The position numbers and the translations under genes are program-made. From Breznakibacter xylanolyticus (GTDB taxonomy: Bacteria; Bacteroidota; Bacteroidia; Bacteroidales; Marinilabiliaceae): 64,000 nt of DNA. Of the stretch, positions 1 through 44,489 are shown piece after piece. The stretch is taken from contig NZ_QKZK01000019.1 of NCBI RefSeq assembly GCF_003254275.1, forward strand, positions 1-64,000, read 5' to 3'. Under the pieces are notes generated by a model. It did not search any database. It saw only the letters and a program-made list of their open reading frames with translations, and was not told the DNA's origin. Numbering within the stretch: position 1 is the stretch's first letter; each line of letters opens with the position of its first letter.

Positions 1-348
1 CATCGGAAAAGCCTTTGAATATTGCCGAAACCGATGGATCAGTCTGCAAAACTACCTCACCAACGGAATGCTGGAAATTGACAGCAATCTGATCGAAAAC
101 TCCATCCGCCCACTGGCCTTGGGGCGGAAAAACTACCTCTTTGCCGGCTCTCATGATGCCGCCGAAAACATTGCCATGTTCTACAGCTTTTTCGGAACCT
201 GCAAAAAACACGACATCGACCCTCTGCGGTGGCTCAAATTTGTCATGGATAACATTCAGGCAACACCTGTCAAGAATTTCAAAGAACTACTGCCGCAATT
301 TATCAACAGGGACTTGATATAAATAGATGGGGTTGCTGGGGTGGATAC
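1..348 (+). mobile_element. IS66-family element, right end (partial)
   Basis: The 3' part of an IS66-type insertion sequence enters from the left edge. The transposase reading frame stops at 322. The bases after it end in ...GTGGATAC (341-348), which on the other strand starts GTATCCAC; a GTA start is usual for IS66 termini. Immediately past 348 the minus-strand sequence becomes a normal aminotransferase frame, so 348 is the most likely right boundary. IS66 elements make 8-bp target duplications, so 349-356 would be the right copy. The left half lies outside the window, so completeness and the other inverted repeat cannot be judged. Confidence 0.75.
2..322 (+). CDS. tnpC: IS66 family transposase, C-terminal fragment
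   Basis: The frame is open from the first bases of the window and encodes about 106 residues of the C-terminal end of an IS66 transposase (TnpC/DDE type). Recognisable family features are NGMLEIDSNLIENSIRPLAL followed by GRKNYLFAGS and a tail with LLPQFIN. The segment LEIDSNLIENSIRP carries the last catalytic Glu region of the DDE domain. The N-terminal part, with the zinc-finger and leucine-zipper regions, lies upstream of the window. Nothing in the visible part is damaged, so the element may be intact. It points toward, and has interrupted, the minus-strand aminotransferase gene. Confidence 0.85.
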   Translation: MGKAFEYCRNRWISLQNYLTNGMLEIDSNLIENSIRPLALGRKNYLFAGSHDAAENIAMFYSFFGTCKKHDIDPLRWLKFVMDNIQATPVKNFKELLPQFINRDLI

Positions 349-800
349 ACAGAACCGGGACTTTGATCCGGAAATGAATCCAAATCATATTCTAATTGAG
401 TCGTCAACATCCATCGACGATAATTAATCCCGTATGTTTTACAGTAATAATTGAATAATGAATACGAAGGCTGAGCAATGGTAATTGGTCGTCCGCTCAA
501 TGCGAAATAACTCAACAACGAAACAATAATTTGAGCGGCACCGGGAGCTGCCACCACACAATCACCCGGCATATCCAGCCATTCACCGATAAGGTGTTCA
601 ACCTCCTCCCCTCCGGCAGAAGGATATCTACACCATTCTCGTTGACACAAGGCAAGAGCAACACGCGACTTAACCTCATCGGGAATATCAAACGGCAATT
701 CATTTTTATCGAGACAAATGTACCCACCATCGATATTCGTGATACGTGACGTACTGTCGAGCACTGCAGAAGTGAAAAAACTTCCAATGGCATTATTCAT
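349..800 (-). pseudogene. HisC-like PLP aminotransferase, cut by IS66
   Basis: About 150 native residues remain of a fold-type I PLP-dependent aminotransferase resembling histidinol-phosphate aminotransferase. Visible are the N-terminal substrate segment LDKNELPFDIPDEVK, the RYP-like motif WCRYPSAGGEEVEHLI, and the region before the cofactor pocket, APGAAQIIVSLL, which replaces the usual GNGSDELI of HisC, then PSYSLFNYY. The frame reaches the IS66 end at 348 near residue 150 and then reads about 15 foreign residues to a stop. The PLP lysine and the NPNNPTG segment are lost from this side. The start lies 5 bases after the stop of the GRAS-domain gene, so the two were an operon. The family match is good; the substrate is unknown, and the altered GNGSD segment argues against classical HisC. 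Confidence 0.75.
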
Positions 801-805
801 GTCAA

Positions 806-1900
806 TTACCCACTAGTCGTTGCACAGATGACAGCCAAAATGATTTCGGTTTCATAACCAAAACCCAAAAATCCTTCTCTATCGACAGTCAACTTCACAC
901 CACAACCAACTTCCATCAACGGATTAAAACAATCCCGATCAATAATAAAACCATGGTGATTCAGCTTCTCAACCCATCGATACCCAGGCTCATGCTTTTC
1001 GTACCGATCGCCGTTATGACGACCGATAATATCTTCAATTTCTCTTCCAAAAAATAACTTCAACCCGTTCTTGTCGACACCTCCGGCATCTAAACGATCA
1101 ATCACCTGAAAAACATGATAAAAGTGGCGATAACAATTTTGAAATCGCCGATAAAAATCAGGTTCAAAATGATCCACATTAGGCTCGGTCAGCAACAAGG
1201 CATCAGGCAATAAACTTCGAAGACACGAAATGACCCTATCGCGCTCTTCTAAACTTTGAATGTGGTGCAAGGCAAGCGATGCATTTACAATCACAGCTCC
1301 AGGATCTTCCCCCAGCAATGCCCTCAGGTCATCTACCGAAAGTTTCTCGACAAAAGCTCGCTTACCGACAAACTCTGTGGAAAACGAAAAACGACTCAAT
1401 TCCTGTCGTATAGAAAACTCCGCTCTCCGCAAAGCGCTTTCAAACGGCTCAATCCCGACCACACGAATGTGTTGATAATGGGCTGAATCCGGAATTCGAC
1501 TCAACAACTTACAAATTTGAGTCCCCTGTCCGATCCCAATATCTAAAATGGTCACATCGGACTTATCATACATCCGACTCAAAATGATGCCATTGACCAC
1601 ATCATGAGCCGCTTTAACAAACGGAAACTTACGACTTAAAATATCAAATAATTGGATTTGTGAAATCTCATAGTTTTTCAAATAAATATGCTCATTTACT
1701 CCGGTATCGCCGATATAACTCTTCAACGAACGAATATAAAGGGTGGAAAGAAACTTTTCTGAATCATCCCCCAGTCCGTCCAAACAATGCGAGAGTAACG
1801 TATCGATCTCAATCTTCGACTCTGGCGTGAATTTATCCGGATAGTTCCGCATCACCAGATCCAAAGCATCGTAAACCCCTGGAATATCAAAATTGAGCAT
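806..1900 (-). CDS. Bacterial GRAS-domain protein (methyltransferase fold)
   Basis: This 364-residue protein matches the GRAS family motif by motif. Residues 116-128, VTILDIGIGQGTQ, correspond to the plant VHIID block. RVVGI (146-150) follows. VNASLALHHI (205-214) matches the VNSxxxLHxL block. LLLTEPNVDHFEPDFYRRF (about 235-253) matches the PFYRE region. FFGREIEDIIG (283-293) and YEKHEPGYRWVEKLNHHGF (300-318) match the block before SAW, and the C-terminus GFLGFGYETEIILAV is SAW-like. Comparative work on bacterial GRAS proteins placed them in the Rossmann-fold SAM methyltransferases, predicted to act on small molecules. DIGIGQG is the likely SAM-binding loop. Residues 1-100 are helical and not recognised. 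It leads an operon with the interrupted aminotransferase, suggesting methylation plus transamination of one metabolite. The substrate is unknown. Confidence 0.8.
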   Translation of the reverse strand: MLNFDIPGVYDALDLVMRNYPDKFTPESKIEIDTLLSHCLDGLGDDSEKFLSTLYIRSLKSYIGDTGVNEHIYLKNYEISQIQLFDILSRKFPFVKAAHDVVNGIILSRMYDKSDVTILDIGIGQGTQICKLLSRIPDSAHYQHIRVVGIEPFESALRRAEFSIRQELSRFSFSTEFVGKRAFVEKLSVDDLRALLGEDPGAVIVNASLALHHIQSLEERDRVISCLRSLLPDALLLTEPNVDHFEPDFYRRFQNCYRHFYHVFQVIDRLDAGGVDKNGLKLFFGREIEDIIGRHNGDRYEKHEPGYRWVEKLNHHGFIIDRDCFNPLMEVGCGVKLTVDREGFLGFGYETEIILAVICATTSG

Positions 1901-2036
1901 GTCATAACATTATTTAAAACATCAAAAAACAAACCGCAACACAGGTATTTACTCTCCCTCTTCACATCTAAAACCGAGAGCAAACAACAATAACTCAACC
2001 CCGGAGCTGATGAGCATCCGGGGCATTTTCAATGGA

Positions 2037-2426
2037 TTAGTTAAATGATTCGAGCCACTTTCTCGCTTCAATAATTGAGGGGAAATACTTGATGTTATCT
2101 GATCGTTTTCCCTCTGCAAACTGCTTCAAGGATAATTGAGTAATCACATTTTTGGGCATCACAAATGCCATGGCTTTCAATCCCTGTTGAAACAACTTAG
2201 GCATGGCTGAAGCGGCATACTGCGTATCAGCCGGATCCACCACACTTTGATTCAACGTGTCTGAAATAATGGTGCGAACCGGATTGCTTTGTGAAAAATG
2301 AAGCGTGGCGTCTATTGCTTCACGAAATTGACCCGATGATGCAAATCCGGTCCAGGTCTGCACCAGCTGCTTGCGTGAATAATCGTAATCGATCTTCACA
2401 ACCGGAGAGTTTAAAACTGTGTTCAT
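2037..2426 (-). CDS. STAS/SEC14-like small protein
   Basis: A 129-residue soluble protein with no signal peptide. The pattern of an N-terminal strand (VKIDYDYSRKQLVQTW), a central TIISDT segment, AMPKLFQQGLKAMAFVMPK and a C-terminal EARKWLESF helix fits the Bacteroidota family often labelled STAS/SEC14-like or SpoIIAA-like. These proteins are common near sensor kinases and are thought to be signalling adaptors, but no member known to me has a firm function. It lies on the same strand as the hybrid kinase just upstream, about 145 bases behind the kinase stop. That gap holds a palindrome (2496-2510), so the gene may have its own control. The call is by overall pattern only. Confidence 0.5.
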   Translation of the reverse strand: MNTVLNSPVVKIDYDYSRKQLVQTWTGFASSGQFREAIDATLHFSQSNPVRTIISDTLNQSVVDPADTQYAASAMPKLFQQGLKAMAFVMPKNVITQLSLKQFAEGKRSDNIKYFPSIIEARKWLESFN

Positions 2427-2438
2427 AGGCGTAGTTTT

Positions 2439-2510
2439 AGGTGTTCACCTGCCTTCGCTCCCATCATCATAATTAAGGAAGTCGCGGCAAGATTGGGTCT
2501 AATTTAGACC
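2439..2510 (-). promoter_or_regulatory. Inverted repeats upstream of the STAS-like gene
   Basis: A perfect inverted repeat, GGTCTAA-T-TTAGACC, lies at 2496-2510, about 70 bases upstream of the start codon at 2426. A second, AGGTG-TT-CACCT, lies at 2439-2450 in the leader. The first has the size of a dimeric repressor site. No regulator for it can be named, and chance occurrence or an RNA hairpin remains possible. Confidence 0.3.
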
Positions 2511-2572
2511 ATTTTACTCTCGGGGTCAAGAAAAAATTGTGCACCTACAAATAAATTGTCTCTCAACAATAA

Positions 2573-4312
2573 TCAACTCAAATGTTGCTTTATTTTGCCA
2601 ATCAAATCTTCGGGCTGAAACGGTTTGCTAATATAATCGTCCATCCCCGACGCAAAACAACGCTCCCTATCCTCAGGAAAGGCATTGGCCGTCACTGCAA
2701 TAATTGGCGTATGGGTATTACTGCTACGCTCAATTTCTCTAATCTTTTGAGTGGCCTTAAAACCATCCATGATAGGCATTTGCACATCCATCAAAATCAA
2801 ATCGTACTTAGCCTTCCCAAACTTATCAAGCGCTTCCTTGCCATTGAAAGCCACATCAATACGACTCACATGATTTTTAATATACAGGATAATAATTTGC
2901 TGATTACTAAAATTATCCTCCACCAATAAAATACTGGCATCCTTCATCTCGACATTGCCTTTAAAAAGCGGCTCAACCGATTTTGCTTTCTCCTGGATAT
3001 CGAGTACAGACTGGCTTTTATGACTTTCTTTAAGGGTAATAGAGAACTCCACAATGGTTTGTCCGGTTTGCGTATAAATACTCATCGTGTTACCATCCCC
3101 TTCTATTAAGCGTTGGGTGATGCCCAGTTCAAGCACCTGCACATAACGGGCGGTGTTTAACATCACCACATCCTGATTGTAAAGCGAATCGCGCTGTGCC
3201 ATGTCGCGCGTGAGCGGCATCTGGTGATTACTAGAAATGCGAAACAACAAAACCACCTTGCCGGGAAGCATCTCTTTTTGAGTCACCTCAATATTGATCT
3301 GCTTCACCTCCTCTTTGTTTTGTTTAATGATGCTATTAAAAATATTGAGCAGAATCTGCTTCACTTTAATACTGCTCCCCAATAAATTGGACGGAATATC
3401 AGCAGAAAGCGATAAACTAAAACGCTTGTCTTTTTGACCATCTTGGAATAAACGCAAGGTATTATTAATGATCGCATACAAATTAAAGCTGGTTTCCTCC
3501 TCCGGCTCCTGGCTCACGCCCGATTTGGGAGCATTCACCAAACTGTTAACCACATTCACCAAATTGTTAGCCGAAGCATGGATGGTATTGATATAATCAC
3601 GCTGATCGTCATCCAAGCGGGTTTTTTCGAGCATATCAATAATCCCGGTGATATTGCTCAACGGCGTTCTGATTTGATGGGACAACTGAGATATTTGTTC
3701 CTCCTGACTGCGGCTTTGGTTGCGCGAATCGAGCATTATTTTCTCCTTATTAATGAGCAATTCACCTGAAATAAAATGAACCACATACGCCACCAACGTC
3801 ATGGCCAAATAAAGTGCACCCATCACAATTCGCCATTCCAAAGAATAAACCTGAACTAAAGGAATTAATTCAGACAGGGGAAGAAAAGCAATTAACATGC
3901 CTCCAAACAATAACAACGAATAAAGTACACCTTTGCGTCGTCCGAAAATGGAGATGACAAACAATGGATATAAAAATGACCAAACGATGCCCAAATGTGA
4001 AATCCCGCCCATGGTCATAAAAAACATCAACGTCCCCATCGTTACCCAGGCTAACAACTCCTGATAAATGGCTTTCTGGACAAAACGAGCTAAAAAGATG
4101 AAATTAACCAGATAAAAGAGACTAAAACACAACAAGGGGACAGCATAAATTGTCTCTTCGACAAACAACGAATAGATGCCTTCTAAAAAGACAACCAAGA
4201 AATAAAAAGTATTCATCAGATTGGCAATCAAAATGCGATTGCGATCTTCCAAATCAAGTTTTTCGGCCTGTTCAAACAGGAATATCGAAATAAAACGGCT
4301 CATCAACTTCAT
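2573..4312 (-). CDS. Hybrid histidine kinase with degenerate ATPase domain
   Basis: The protein is 579 residues from the ATG at 4312. An earlier GTG at 4381 is possible, but a TATTTTG promoter-like box lies between the two. Six hydrophobic helices span roughly residues 30-185. A HisKA dimerisation helix follows with the phospho-acceptor in SQLSHQIRTPLSN (His212). The HATPase-like region (about 275-430) is eroded: the N-box reads ILLNIFNSIIKQ, with Ser where the metal-binding Asn should be, the DxGxG motif is absent, and the GTGLGL loop reads VQVLELG. A C-terminal receiver (about 459-579) is intact, with phospho-Asp in LILMDVQMPIMDG (Asp509) and Lys in YISKPF. The likely role is a membrane phosphorelay sensor, but ATP-dependent autophosphorylation is doubtful. 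It may act as a phosphatase, a partner subunit, or be phosphorylated in trans. Confidence 0.85.
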   Translation of the reverse strand: MKLMSRFISIFLFEQAEKLDLEDRNRILIANLMNTFYFLVVFLEGIYSLFVEETIYAVPLLCFSLFYLVNFIFLARFVQKAIYQELLAWVTMGTLMFFMTMGGISHLGIVWSFLYPLFVISIFGRRKGVLYSLLLFGGMLIAFLPLSELIPLVQVYSLEWRIVMGALYLAMTLVAYVVHFISGELLINKEKIMLDSRNQSRSQEEQISQLSHQIRTPLSNITGIIDMLEKTRLDDDQRDYINTIHASANNLVNVVNSLVNAPKSGVSQEPEEETSFNLYAIINNTLRLFQDGQKDKRFSLSLSADIPSNLLGSSIKVKQILLNIFNSIIKQNKEEVKQINIEVTQKEMLPGKVVLLFRISSNHQMPLTRDMAQRDSLYNQDVVMLNTARYVQVLELGITQRLIEGDGNTMSIYTQTGQTIVEFSITLKESHKSQSVLDIQEKAKSVEPLFKGNVEMKDASILLVEDNFSNQQIIILYIKNHVSRIDVAFNGKEALDKFGKAKYDLILMDVQMPIMDGFKATQKIREIERSSNTHTPIIAVTANAFPEDRERCFASGMDDYISKPFQPEDLIGKIKQHLS

Positions 4313-4658
4313 GCGTAAATATTTGGTTGGTTCAAGTTTGGCACAAAATATGTCAATCACCACATTAGGCAGAGTGCTCAAACAACTACCGATAAAAGCT
4401 ATTCATCGTCTATGCAATTTGCAAAAATCTTTCCTTACAAGCCATGAATTTCAAAAATAAATCTTCAACTATGGAAAATCAAACTTTTCTTTATAATTTG
4501 GGATGTTCTTGATTCGTGTCACGCTCTCGAACAAGTTATTTATAATTATTGGAACCATTTACCACCTTCTTCAGTAAAAAAGAGTCATTCCCATTTTTAT
4601 ACAAAATAGGCTCCCAATACAGAACGCAACAAAAAACTAAAATAAAACAGAAGTAAAA
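4313..4658. other. Divergent intergenic region
   Basis: About 345 bases separate the divergently transcribed kinase gene and the gene for the secreted protein at 4659. The sequence is AT-rich, consistent with two promoters. A minus-strand TATTTTG box about 40 bases before the kinase ATG is a fair -7 candidate. I found no clear TAnnTTTG match for the plus-strand gene, no repeat and no RNA gene. Confidence 0.4.
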
Positions 4659-5510
4659 ATGAAAAAACTATTCCTTTCCCTCTCTGCCATCCTATCAATG
4701 GCCACATCTTTATTGGCTCAGGAACACATTCCCACACCTCAGGATTACCAAAACTTCAAATCGACCCGTACTCTCGTGGTGATGGACATCAACCCCATGA
4801 GCGATTTTAACTTTAAAATTAAAGAAGTGATGGCCAATGTCTGGAAACTCACCGAGTTTGAATTCATCGACCAAAAAGAGTTTGAAAGCAAACGACGCGA
4901 CCCAAGCTACTCATTCTTACTCACCACCACTGCCACCTTTGATGCTGACAAAACCAAGGCACGATACACCTTTTTGAGCCTCTTGATGGGAAAAGATGTG
5001 GCCAATGTTAGCAACATGCCTGATTTATGTTCCATTCCCCTCTCATACAAACGGGTTGAGGACGACAGCTACTATTACAAGATGGATGCTTTTATTCGTT
5101 TCATACAAGATCATGTAACCCTGATGACTGACAATCCCAAACTCATCAAAGCCAACCCATTAACCTATTACAACAAAAATGCGGGTGATTTGAAGAACAA
5201 GACCTTATACGTTGTCAAAGAAGAACTCTCACCCGACATCAACACAATTGCCAAAATTAAAAAAGTGTACCCCAATGAGGTAAAAATCGTGAGCAGAGAT
5301 GAAATCATGGAAGTAATTGACAGCAAAGACCCCAATGCTGTATTCTTCCACAAGGTTGGCCCCGAAGGCACACAATACAAAGCCCGTTGCTATAAAATTG
5401 TGATTGGAGCGGGCGACTCTAAACTCTACTACTTCGACTGGCACATGATTGACGCCAATAAAAAACGGGATTGGCTGCTCGAAAGCGACTTAAAGAGCAT
5501 GGCCAAATAA
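4659..5510 (+). CDS. Secreted protein of unknown function
   Basis: A 283-residue protein with a clear signal peptide (MKKLFLSLSAILSMATSLLA, cleavage probably after ALLAQ-type sequence near residue 21). The mature part is mixed alpha/beta and hydrophilic with no lipobox and no later membrane helix, so it is periplasmic or outer-membrane associated. I do not recognise the family. A possible internal two-repeat layout is suggested by RTLVVMDINP near residue 40 and KTLYVVKEELSP near residue 185, each followed by a segment about responding to EFxD or KIVSRDEIMEVI. It stands alone, with its own terminator downstream. No cofactor or catalytic motif is evident. Confidence 0.7.
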   Translation: MKKLFLSLSAILSMATSLLAQEHIPTPQDYQNFKSTRTLVVMDINPMSDFNFKIKEVMANVWKLTEFEFIDQKEFESKRRDPSYSFLLTTTATFDADKTKARYTFLSLLMGKDVANVSNMPDLCSIPLSYKRVEDDSYYYKMDAFIRFIQDHVTLMTDNPKLIKANPLTYYNKNAGDLKNKTLYVVKEELSPDINTIAKIKKVYPNEVKIVSRDEIMEVIDSKDPNAVFFHKVGPEGTQYKARCYKIVIGAGDSKLYYFDWHMIDANKKRDWLLESDLKSMAK

Positions 5511-5534
5511 TACATCAACGATATCAGCCCAATC

Positions 5535-5569
5535 AAGCACCTGCCCCATCTGGTCAGGTGCTTTTTTTT
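5535..5569 (+). terminator. Rho-independent terminator
   Basis: A 9-bp stem, AAGCACCTG paired with CAGGTGCTT, with a 11-base loop is followed by a run of T. It lies 25 bases after the stop of the secreted-protein gene. Confidence 0.85.
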
Positions 5570-5637
5570 CGTCACAATTCATATCTCCTCAGCCAATTCA
5601 TTTTATCCAGGCTCACTTCATATTAAAAAAATGCTTC

Positions 5638-5645
5638 TATTTTTG
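5638..5645 (+). promoter_or_regulatory. Bacteroidota -7 box for ettA
   Basis: TATTTTTG matches TAnnTTTG and lies 27 bases before the ATG at 5672. No convincing -33 TTTG is seen. Because the box overlaps a GTG at 5645 that could otherwise extend the gene, it supports the ATG as the true start. Confidence 0.5.
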
Positions 5646-5671
5646 TGACTCAACCACAAACAAGAATAACA

Positions 5672-7357
5672 ATGTCAGACGATAAAAAAATCATTTTCAG
5701 CATGGTAGGGGTCAGCAAAACGTACCCACCACAACGCAAAGTTCTCAACAACATTTACCTCTCGTTTTTTTACGGAGCCAAAATCGGCATCATCGGTCTC
5801 AACGGCTCCGGAAAATCGACCCTTTTAAAGATCATTGCCGGCCTCGAAAAGAACTACGAAGGGCAAGTTGTGTTCTCGCCAGGCTATTCGGTGGGTTATC
5901 TAGAACAAGACCCGCAACTCGACAACACAAAGACCGTCCGCCAGGTGGTTGAAGAAGGTGTACAGGAAATTGTCGACACCCTTAAGGCCTACGAAGAAGT
6001 CAACCTCAAGTTTGGCGATCCGGATGTATTGGAAGATCCCGACAAAATGGATGCCCTGATGGACGAGCAAGCCAAACTGCAGGAAAAAATTGACCAATAC
6101 GATGCTTGGAACCTCGACACAAAACTCGAGATTGCCATGGATGCACTGCGCTGTCCACCAGAGGATCAGCTCATTGGCGAATTATCGGGAGGTGAGCGTC
6201 GCCGGGTGGCACTTTGCCGCCTACTGCTTCGCCAGCCCGACATTCTGCTTTTAGACGAGCCCACCAACCACCTCGATGCCGAATCGGTGCAATGGCTTGA
6301 AATGCACTTGCAAAAATACAGTGGCACCGTGATTGCCATCACCCACGACCGCTACTTCCTGGACAACGTAGCCGGTTGGATTCTGGAACTCGACAGAGGG
6401 GAAGGCATCCCTTGGAAAGGCAACTATTCATCGTGGCTCGACCAAAAATCAACCCGTTTGGCACAAGAAGAAAAACAAGTTTCCAAACGTCGCAAAACCC
6501 TTGAACGAGAGCTCGAATGGGTTCGCATGGCTCCCAAAGCACGTCAGGCCAAATCGAAAGCTCGCTTGTCGGCCTACGAAAACCTGATGCACGAAGACGT
6601 GAAAGAAAAAGAAGAAAAACTGGAAATCTTCATCCCCAATGGCCCCCGATTAGGAGATAAAGTCATCGAGGCTCACGGCGTTGCCAAAGGATACAGCGAC
6701 CGATTACTATTTGAAAATTTGGAATTCGTACTTCCCAAAAACGGCATCGTAGGAGTAATCGGCCCTAACGGTGCCGGTAAAACCACCCTGTTTCGCATGA
6801 TTATGGGATTGGAAAAAGTGGATGACGGCACCTTTGAAGTGGGCGAAACCGTAAAAGTGGCATACGTGGATCAATCACACGAAGGCATAGACCCTGAAAA
6901 AACAGTCTTTCAAGTGGTTTCGGGTGGACAGGAGCTCATTCGCTTAGGCAATCGCGACATCAACGCACGAGCCTACCTGGGACGATTCAATTTTACCGGT
7001 TCCGACCAGGAAAAAAAATGCAAAATGCTCTCGGGTGGGGAACGCAACCGACTACACATGGCACTAACACTCAAAGAGGAAGCCAACGTTCTGCTCCTCG
7101 ATGAGCCAACCAACGACATTGACGTGAACACCTTGCGTGCGCTGGAAGAAGGCTTGGACGATTTTGCCGGTTGTGCCGTTATTATTTCACACGACCGATG
7201 GTTTCTCGACCGGGTAGCCACACACATTTTGGCTTTCGAAGGCAATTCCACAGTCTACTTCTTCGAAGGGAGCTACTCTGATTACGAAGAGAATAAAAAA
7301 CGTCGACTGGGCGACACCACACCCCATCGAATCAAATACAAAAAGCTGATTAAATAA
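5672..7357 (+). CDS. ettA: Energy-dependent translational throttle protein EttA
   Basis: A 561-residue ABC-F protein with two ATPase domains and no membrane segments. The first domain has GLNGSGKST (Walker A), LSGGERRRVALCRLLL (signature) and LLLDEPTNHLDAESV (Walker B). The second has GPNGAGKTT, LSGGERNRLHMAL and LLLDEPTNDIDVNTL. The linker contains the EttA-type stretches GEGIPWKGNYSSWL and LEWVRMAPKARQAKSK, and the C-terminus ends RIKYKK as in E. coli EttA. The family binds the ribosomal E site and couples the first peptide bond to ATP level. Its identity with EttA is high by recall, well above other ABC-F types. It is monocistronic between two terminators. Confidence 0.95.
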   Translation: MSDDKKIIFSMVGVSKTYPPQRKVLNNIYLSFFYGAKIGIIGLNGSGKSTLLKIIAGLEKNYEGQVVFSPGYSVGYLEQDPQLDNTKTVRQVVEEGVQEIVDTLKAYEEVNLKFGDPDVLEDPDKMDALMDEQAKLQEKIDQYDAWNLDTKLEIAMDALRCPPEDQLIGELSGGERRRVALCRLLLRQPDILLLDEPTNHLDAESVQWLEMHLQKYSGTVIAITHDRYFLDNVAGWILELDRGEGIPWKGNYSSWLDQKSTRLAQEEKQVSKRRKTLERELEWVRMAPKARQAKSKARLSAYENLMHEDVKEKEEKLEIFIPNGPRLGDKVIEAHGVAKGYSDRLLFENLEFVLPKNGIVGVIGPNGAGKTTLFRMIMGLEKVDDGTFEVGETVKVAYVDQSHEGIDPEKTVFQVVSGGQELIRLGNRDINARAYLGRFNFTGSDQEKKCKMLSGGERNRLHMALTLKEEANVLLLDEPTNDIDVNTLRALEEGLDDFAGCAVIISHDRWFLDRVATHILAFEGNSTVYFFEGSYSDYEENKKRRLGDTTPHRIKYKKLIK

Positions 7358-7423: not shown

Positions 7424-8551
7424 TTATTGACCATTAGGCATCACAATGCTTACCAAGGGATGCTCATCAAATGATTGATGATAAAACTCAGTATCAACAA
7501 TGGGGCGATATAAATAAAACATCTTTTGCACCCCTTTACCCTTCACTTTCAACGGAACCCGTTCGATGGTTTTAAAATAATCTCGCACCAATTCATTGGT
7601 CTTTTCCGATAGGTTGATTTGCATAGGATCGGCATGTTGCTGCATTCGGGCTGCCGTATTAATAGTGTCACCAAATACGTCGAAATGATAATTCTCACGC
7701 CCGATGAGTCCGGCAAACATATCGCCCGAATGAATACCGATGCGCAATCGCCAACGGGTAGGGTGTTTTTTATTTCGCAAACTCACAAAATTGATCATAT
7801 CTACCGCAGCACGAGCTAATTTAACGGCATGCAACGGTTCCGCCTCCGGAAATCCACACGAAGCTAAATAAGCATCGCCAATGGTCTTGATTTTCTCACA
7901 CCCGTGATAGTGCATAATTTCATCGAATGCCGGAAACAATGAATTCAACTCATTAAACATACACTTGGGTGACATGCTATTGGTGGTGGTGGTAAAGTCC
8001 ACCAAATCGGCAAATAACACCGACACTTCCTTATAACGCCGGGGCTTGACAAAACCATCATTCAAAATCTCCTTCACCACACTCTCGGGCAAATAGCCTT
8101 TTATGATATTATGTGTTCTTTGACGTTCATGATTCAACAACACTGTCTGTTCTCGTAATTTATTGTAAGCACTCGTGAGCGCCAACACCGATCTCACCCG
8201 GGCTATCAACTCGATGCCATCAATGGGCTTACGTATATAATCGATGGCGCCGGCTTCCAAAGCCAACCGGATATTTTCACTCTCGGTAAAACCCGAAGAG
8301 ATGATAACCGGAATATCCTTCAGTGCGTCATTTTTTTTCATTCGCTGCAAAGCCTCGTAACCCGACATTTCGGGCATCTCCCAATCCATGATCACCAAAT
8401 CGGGACGCGCAGCATGAGCCATTTTGCACGCTTCTTTCCCGTTCATGGCAAAGAGATACTGAAACGGCTCATTCAACTCATTGAGCAATGAGGCGATCAG
8501 CTCGGAGATAATTCGCATATCATCAACAATCAAAATCTTAACGGCACTCAT
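7424..8551 (-). CDS. Receiver domain-adenylate cyclase fusion
   Basis: The 375-residue cytoplasmic protein joins a receiver domain (1-122, phospho-Asp56 in LVIMDWEMPEMSG, Lys108 in YIRKPI) through a helical linker (about 125-165) to a class III nucleotide cyclase domain (about 172-360). Metal-binding aspartates are Asp182 (LFADLVDF) and Asp226 (TIGDAY). The base-specifying positions are Lys222 (KIKTIG) and Asp291 (FDVFGDTINTAARM), which is the adenylate rather than the guanylate combination. Transition-state residues Asn298 and Arg302 are also present. It should make cAMP under control of phosphorylation by an unlinked kinase. No kinase gene adjoins it; the degenerate hybrid kinase about 3 kb to the left is on the same strand but separated by other genes. 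Confidence 0.9.
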   Translation of the reverse strand: MSAVKILIVDDMRIISELIASLLNELNEPFQYLFAMNGKEACKMAHAARPDLVIMDWEMPEMSGYEALQRMKKNDALKDIPVIISSGFTESENIRLALEAGAIDYIRKPIDGIELIARVRSVLALTSAYNKLREQTVLLNHERQRTHNIIKGYLPESVVKEILNDGFVKPRRYKEVSVLFADLVDFTTTTNSMSPKCMFNELNSLFPAFDEIMHYHGCEKIKTIGDAYLASCGFPEAEPLHAVKLARAAVDMINFVSLRNKKHPTRWRLRIGIHSGDMFAGLIGRENYHFDVFGDTINTAARMQQHADPMQINLSEKTNELVRDYFKTIERVPLKVKGKGVQKMFYLYRPIVDTEFYHQSFDEHPLVSIVMPNGQ

Positions 8552-44313: not shown

Positions 44314-44489
44314 AGTCGCTTGTTTCTTAAAAAAATTGAGTCCCATTTGTATTTTTTGCAAAAGTACGAGTTGACAATATGCCCACAAATACACTTAACA
44401 GTTTTTAACCCCCGATTAACGATAATTACCCAATTTTCAACCATTTTTCCCCTTATGGGCAGGTCGATGCCACTGCCTGTCAAAACAAA

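Follow-up and report, generated by a model that had tools for sequence, protein, structure and literature searches.

The window, that is, the whole 64,000-nucleotide stretch of the Breznakibacter xylanolyticus genome analysed here, encodes a member of the GRAS family, which most likely functions, judging from its residues, as a SAM-dependent methyltransferase, and which recurrently stands in bacterial genomes beside a HisC-like aminotransferase (AT), beside small STAS-fold proteins, or beside both. The protein itself is an addition to a known family, and the recurrent AT and STAS modules are the new part. The features of the locus are summarized in Table 1.

Table 1. Features of the GRAS locus in the window and of its separated parts on contig C31 of the same genome.
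Feature	Position	Strand	Evidence or remark
IS66 3' end	1..348	+	transposase C-terminus 2-322; terminal inverted repeat ~322-348 (by eye)
HisC-like PLP AT, N-terminal part, 165 aa	303..800	-	TIGR01141 44.7 bits, PF00155 28.8 bits
8-bp target-site duplication of the IS66 insertion	349..356	.	identical 8-mer adjoins the IS end on C31
GRAS-family protein, 364 aa, SAM-binding motif intact, probable methyltransferase	806..1900	-	PF03514 E 9.5e-29
STAS-fold protein, 129 aa, upstream of GRAS	2037..2426	-	model pLDDT 86.3; Foldseek RsbS
Second STAS copy, beyond AT	C31 (L035), 6793-7188	-	close copy
AT remainder	C31 (L035), about 7581-8222	-	match to L006 AT query

The affiliation with GRAS, claimed in a preliminary description of this DNA, was borne out. 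The 364-residue product matched the Pfam GRAS model PF03514 at 100.9 bits (cut-off 27) over residues 78-318 (profile positions 74-324 of 374), and all 14 matches returned from the PDB in a single-sequence search were plant GRAS proteins, headed by SCL3 (E 2.4e-10) and DELLA 1. When a profile of 10 bacterial members was used instead, 15 of the 16 PDB matches were plant GRAS, with E values of 1.8e-33 for DELLA 1, 1.9e-30 for SCL3 and 4.6e-28 for the rice SCL7 chain 5hyz; the sole other match was AprA MT1 (E 0.033), and the alignment of the profile with DELLA 1 spanned positions 31-355. The three generic methyltransferase models that matched the reading frame all remained under their own cut-offs, so that the result which the preliminary description had named as speaking against its claim, the lack of a significant GRAS match together with a better one to an unrelated methyltransferase family, did not arise. 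The further statement that every GRAS block is present in order was somewhat overstated. The quoted motifs VTILDIGIGQGTQ, RVVGI, LALHHI, FFGREIEDIIG and YEKHEPGYRWVEK were all found in the translation of the minus strand, and VHIID-like and then PFYRE/RVER-like blocks followed in order, both in the translation and in the alignment with DELLA 1; the Pfam match of this protein covered neither the LHRI-like portion at the N-terminus nor the final ~50 positions of the profile, which correspond to SAW, and these ends were aligned only with the 10-member profile.

Structural comparison agreed with this assignment, although the AlphaFold2 model of the GRAS protein was built from three sequences and was poor (pLDDT 51.3). 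The first ten chains retrieved with this model by Foldseek were plant GRAS, and re-alignment of the candidates supplied by Foldseek with VIA-align 2 placed eight plant GRAS entries at the top (Z 16.0-17.7, 198-224 residues, rmsd 3.2-4.7), with ordinary class I methyltransferases behind them at Z 13.9 and lower. An unrelated methyltransferase misread as GRAS was also considered and was rejected on the grounds that the generic models stayed under cut-off and that these eight entries came first by fold.

As for the SAM-binding motif, 20 hand-picked positions were compared across 17 bacterial GRAS proteins. The residues D120, G122, G124 and G126 of the DxGxGxG signature were identical in all 17, as were Q128, G149, N206, H212, H213, E239, R252, H259, R286, E287, R299, E301 and W309; positions 151 and 246 were invariably acidic (16 E and one D each), and H244 was kept in 16. 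Position 151 is the acid that follows beta-2 of the SAM motif, and the combination that marks class I SAM-dependent methyltransferases, the glycine-rich motif I plus this acid, was accordingly present in 17 of 17. The small-molecule methyltransferase role put forward in the preliminary description is, with this motif in every member collected, a probable one, and it agrees with an older proposal: Zhang, Iyer and Aravind reportedly suggested in 2012 that bacterial GRAS proteins act as small-molecule methylases. As relayed in two citing papers (PMC4609302, PMC6232258), their proposal dealt with the same kind of protein and already gave it this role.

The plant GRAS proteins (DELLA/RGA, SCL3, SCL7, SHR and SCR) belong to the same Pfam family, share the fold and can be aligned with the bacterial protein across most of the domain. 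In contrast to the bacterial protein, which has the SAM glycines and the acid, the two plant chains compared have lost them partly or wholly: DELLA 1 reads GLKQG at the bacterial G-x-G-x-G and has a glycine in place of the acid, and SCL3 lacks the glycines as well as the acid. According to a review, plant GRAS domains are devoid of SAM-binding motifs, and neither SAM nor SAH binding was detected by ITC (PMC5873383). Considering that the motif is intact in bacteria and degraded in these two plant chains, the bacterial protein appears to resemble the type of enzyme ancestral to plant GRAS.

The HisC-like aminotransferase described as the operon partner of GRAS is indeed present, 5 bp from the GRAS gene, but as a fragment, since the gene is split by an IS66 element. 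The homologous coding portion of the AT reading frame extends over ~349-800, the rest of the frame running into the IS element, and the frame matched the hisC model TIGR01141 with an E value of 7.7e-12 at 44.7 bits, below the cut-off of 276.55. The contig of the window starts at base 1 inside the IS66 element, the transposase end of which matched PF03050 (61 bits) and NF033517 (95.3 bits); the latter score falls under the whole-protein cut-off of 180 because just the last 82 residues of the transposase are present. With the AT of locus L006 as query, residues 11-156 matched the window and residues 154-263 matched contig C31, the end of which (base 44,318) bears the other IS terminus as judged by eye. 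IS66 elements generate 8-bp target duplications, and the same 8-mer adjoins the element on both contigs. An IS66 element thus interrupts the AT gene in this genome, where further IS66 copies occupy three other contig ends; the AT step has probably been lost here, with the GRAS and STAS reading frames intact.

The conservation of the GRAS-AT pair was surveyed at 17 GRAS loci, the neighbour counts being judged beside GRAS. A same-strand AT adjoins GRAS at seven of them (the window, L006, L016/G527, L054/G806, L056/G1010, L057/G847 and L018/G450), and these pairs span six genus codes and the Ww25 MAG. By ATG starts, the two genes are separated by 5 bp in the window and by 33, 1, 41, 52 and 49 bp in L006, L016, L054, L056 and L057, respectively; L018 has the opposite gene order, and its AT overlaps GRAS by 4 bp. 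At three loci a contig end falls near GRAS, namely partway through the AT in L006, within GRAS itself in L056 and behind STAS in L022, so that partners could be missed there. Using the AT of G806 as query (E ≤ 1e-40), the AT subfamily was found in four of 390 genomes of the class (G000, G806, G847 and G1010), all of them GRAS-bearing, in a survey that scored up to four candidates per genome and counted in the genome of the query and that of the window; three of the four have the AT beside GRAS, and the genome of the window (G000) enters through the half on C31. The naive chance of this co-occurrence is 1.6e-8, a value that ignores kinship and counts the query and window genomes. Within the samples, the AT subfamily and GRAS are reciprocally specific.

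The pair ATs resemble HisC and CobD-type aminotransferases, being HisC-like and retaining the SFSK motif, which holds the PLP lysine. This motif occurs in all six pair ATs of the main clade, and TFSK replaces it in L018. They are distinguished from HisC in two respects: the six formed one clade (99/98) apart from the HisC of the genome in a tree that carried long-branch warnings, and the four whole ATs of this clade all scored below the TIGR01141 cut-off of 276.55 bits (L016, 240.4; L054, 223.7; L056, 223.7; L057, 229.7). The AT of L018 is possibly an ordinary HisC, as it is distant (23% identity) and exceeds the cut-off with 290.5 bits. The identification of the window AT with the genome's own HisC was rejected, since the genome's own paralogue (L027) groups with the HisC of the his operon in L066 (100/99).

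The pairing is nevertheless not general. All six other GRAS genomes found in the family of the window have STAS and no AT beside GRAS, the same holds for G105 and G208, and in G505 and G791 neither AT nor STAS adjoins GRAS. The lack of an adjacent AT in the six family relatives and in G105 and G208 indicates that GRAS persists without an AT neighbour. The conserved pair that the preliminary description had expected is partly supported: it recurs at seven of 17 loci, and every sampled genome with the AT subfamily bears GRAS, whereas the lack of the pair in relatives, which that description would have counted against it, was observed in part, in these six family genomes. Nor is the AT the only partner, because STAS-fold genes stand beside ten of the 17 GRAS genes.

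These STAS genes always lie on the same strand as GRAS and come from five genus codes and the Ww25 MAG; the window and L006 are the two loci that have both AT and STAS. The model of the window protein (pLDDT 86.3) adopts the STAS fold, the best Foldseek match being RsbS (6jhk, E 1.8e-5, TM 0.75/0.82), followed by SpoIIAA. While sharing the fold of RsbS and SpoIIAA by this model, the protein differs from them in that no Pfam family passed its cut-off for the window copy (best, DUF7793 with 14.7 bits against 26) or four further copies, and in that these proteins seem, from sequence and model, to have no conserved serine at the position of the SpoIIAA phospho-serine.

The STAS proteins track GRAS closely within the family. 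Among 71 of its genomes, full-length GRAS was found in seven and close STAS copies in exactly the same seven, with 14 copies in total, two per GRAS genome, at E 3.9e-43 or better; the profile used (A4) includes the window copy and both copies of G007, and the STAS copies of the window and G007 therefore match by construction. Eight weak matches (E 3.4e-14 to 8.3e-7), seven in five GRAS-less genomes and one extra in G005, were left out of this count. The naive chance of the co-occurrence is 7.5e-10, again ignoring kinship and counting query genomes. Thirteen of the 14 close copies adjoin GRAS, and the remaining one, on C31 of G000, lies beyond the AT. The gene order is STAS-GRAS-STAS with no AT between in G007, G024, G005, G020, G1209 and G1212, and STAS-GRAS-AT-STAS across the IS break in the genome of the window. 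One reading of this difference is that an AT was lost from the middle of the set, and the other is that it was gained. The GRAS tree is weakly resolved, with stars on four of its 14 internal branches and with L018 and L017 on long ones; the minimum number of changes on it is four for AT and three for STAS.

It could be argued that these adjacencies reflect chance or inherited synteny and carry no functional meaning, given that several loci come from related genomes, that GRAS genomes within a family share synteny, and that the samples are small with the query genomes counted in. We consider this highly improbable, however, as the AT pairs extend over six genus codes and the Ww25 MAG and occur in both gene orders (reversed in L018), and as neither the AT subfamily (E ≤ 1e-40) nor close STAS copies were found in sampled GRAS-less genomes.

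The explanation that we favor, with a confidence slightly better than even, is that a GRAS methyltransferase of the active type and a dedicated HisC-like AT work, or once worked, on one amino acid/2-oxo acid, with the STAS proteins as regulators or scaffold. The AT would convert an amino acid into the corresponding 2-oxo acid and back (or do the same with an amine and its aldehyde), the GRAS enzyme would methylate one of these two compounds to afford a methylated amino-acid-like molecule, and the small STAS proteins, of which two copies flank GRAS in the family of the window, would probably serve the GRAS enzyme as regulators or as a scaffold. Methylation itself, a pathway shared by GRAS and AT, the class of substrate and the role of STAS are the elements that we infer. 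No further biosynthetic gene was recognized by eye beside the GRAS-AT pair, and several neighbours were read as signalling genes.

The pairing of a methyltransferase with an aminotransferase is likewise known from MppJ/TyrB, MrsA/MrsB and GlmT, in which the methyltransferase belongs to a different family. Methylation by MppJ is followed by transamination by TyrB (PMC11496134), and MrsA and GlmT are listed as 2-oxo-acid C-methyltransferases (PMC10502145). The statement of the preliminary description that no pathway of transamination and methylation had been described consequently holds for GRAS alone, because 2-oxo-acid C-methylation and subsequent transamination are described for other methyltransferases. 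Among the literature matches listed, no paper on GRAS-AT or GRAS-STAS modules was found, the 2012 paper of Zhang, Iyer and Aravind lying outside that scope.

A specific version of the favored explanation would follow this precedent, with a 2-oxo-acid C-methyltransferase and a transaminase acting like MppJ then TyrB, or like MrsA, to give a beta-methyl amino acid as a signal or inhibitor. In this precise form we rate it as rather unlikely. The pairing logic fits that of MppJ and TyrB (PMC11496134), the fold neighbours of the GRAS model include SgvM and AprA MT1, the latter being also the sole non-GRAS match of the bacterial profile in the PDB, and the 2-ketoarginine methyltransferase model TIGR04543 is the NCBIfam family touched by most members (five of ten, best E 0.002). 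The TIGR04543 match is weak, however, the window protein reaching 13.5 bits (E 0.028) against a cut-off of 425; four of ten members touch the protein methyltransferase PrmC, with a better best E value (0.0004), EgtD and cap N7-methyltransferases rank equally high by fold, and such similarities are weak and confined to the common SAM-binding core. Moreover, neither an exporter nor a peptide synthetase was seen by eye beside the pair, among neighbours annotated in part.

The same comparisons bear on a methyltransferase of another kind, one that would N-methylate an amino acid or amine, as EgtD does with histidine, and for which the AT would supply or remove the substrate. Outside GRAS, EgtD ranks with the best matches by fold (E 3.7e-4; Z 12.9) and the AT is HisC-like, but EgtD is tied with many other class I methyltransferases, Methyltransf_33 is touched by one of ten members (E 0.13), and all four whole ATs of the main clade fall short of the hisC cut-off; we consider this reading quite unlikely.

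Alternatively, GRAS might now be mainly a regulator, a switch that senses SAM or a metabolite and, together with two STAS proteins, acts on a kinase or on gene expression, as a forerunner of the role in plants. The STAS copies flanking GRAS, with close copies in just those sampled family genomes that hold GRAS, the Crp/Fnr-type, LytTR-type and YfiR-like genes syntenic in five relatives, and an AT that six relatives lack next to GRAS and that is broken in the genome of the window would all suit such a switch. On the other hand, these genomes retain the full SAM motif and the invariant His and Glu residues, as an enzyme would be expected to, and the STAS proteins appear to lack a conserved serine at the position of the SpoIIAA phospho-serine; a mainly regulatory role is unlikely in our estimation. 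On the favored explanation, the reciprocal pairing with one subfamily each of AT and STAS narrows the general idea of a small-molecule methylase to a concrete module open to expression, knock-out and assay, and the bacterial GRAS module hints at the role of GRAS before its adoption by plants.

The most plant-like bacterial GRAS found was that of L018 (G450, 3631-4755), which scored 238 bits against PF03514 over profile positions 3-370 of 374, compared with 101-119 bits for five other bacterial members in the same scan and 100.9 for the window protein. It matched DELLA 1 with an E value of 2.2e-38, and its SAM motif is intact, the acid being D rather than E. The gene still overlaps an AT gene by 4 bp. 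GRAS might have started out in a module of two enzymes, supplying the methyltransferase to a dedicated AT, after which some Bacteroidota lost the AT and drew GRAS into a two-STAS regulatory set. We regard this history as speculative and quite unlikely as it stands; if true, the Bacteroidota GRAS would have turned from enzyme into regulator independently of plants, where the same change came later. The G450 protein is in any case a possible clue to where plant GRAS came from and a candidate for structural and activity work.

Bacterial GRAS is rare in the sampled genomes. With the genome of the window or the seed counted in, GRAS exceeded the Pfam cut-off in four of 295 genomes of the order, was found by single-protein search in four of 395 genomes of the phylum, and gave strong profile matches in six of 395 genomes of the class (one of the six cut by a contig end), seven of 71 of the family, one among 114 from the order that includes G450 and one among 123 from that of G527. 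Ten short matches (~20-24 bits; three in the class, six in the order of G527 and one in the family) and L012/G075 (21.3 bits, under the cut-off) were dropped before counting. The latter (42-1136), a GRAS-like protein, is possibly a divergent branch or another methyltransferase.

In the regulatory-site scans, promoter-like sites were near chance (seven against 5.6 expected) and terminator-like sites slightly above it (four against 1.8). The Bacteroidota-type promoter pattern occurred four times in the window (1.14 expected), though never in the STAS-GRAS gap or immediately ahead of STAS, and Rfam gave no match in 1-5000.

Several observations were made on the wider neighbourhood. On C31 (L035), the second half of the AT and the STAS copy are followed on the same strand, as judged by eye, by mraZ- and mraW-like genes and further cell-wall/division genes. 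In L066 (G1212, 2360-5661), an apparent histidine-biosynthesis operon, whose HisC passes TIGR01141, lies divergently beside STAS-GRAS-STAS. At L017 5506-7932 (G505), a GRAS gene that has neither AT nor STAS stands between a phosphotriesterase-family gene (PF02126) and a directly abutting reading frame of 111 aa. In L007, L019, L020, L023 and L065, STAS-GRAS-STAS is syntenic with genes for a LytTR-type membrane protein, a YfiR/HmsC-like protein and a Crp/Fnr-type regulator, the labels deriving from Pfam in L007 and from BLAST or inspection by eye in the other four. Upstream of GRAS in the window, a reading frame at 2573-4381 on the same strand was read by eye as a hybrid histidine kinase/response regulator, and kinase or regulator genes also occur near GRAS in L016, L054, L055 and L057, the kinase of L055 being the one tested with Pfam.
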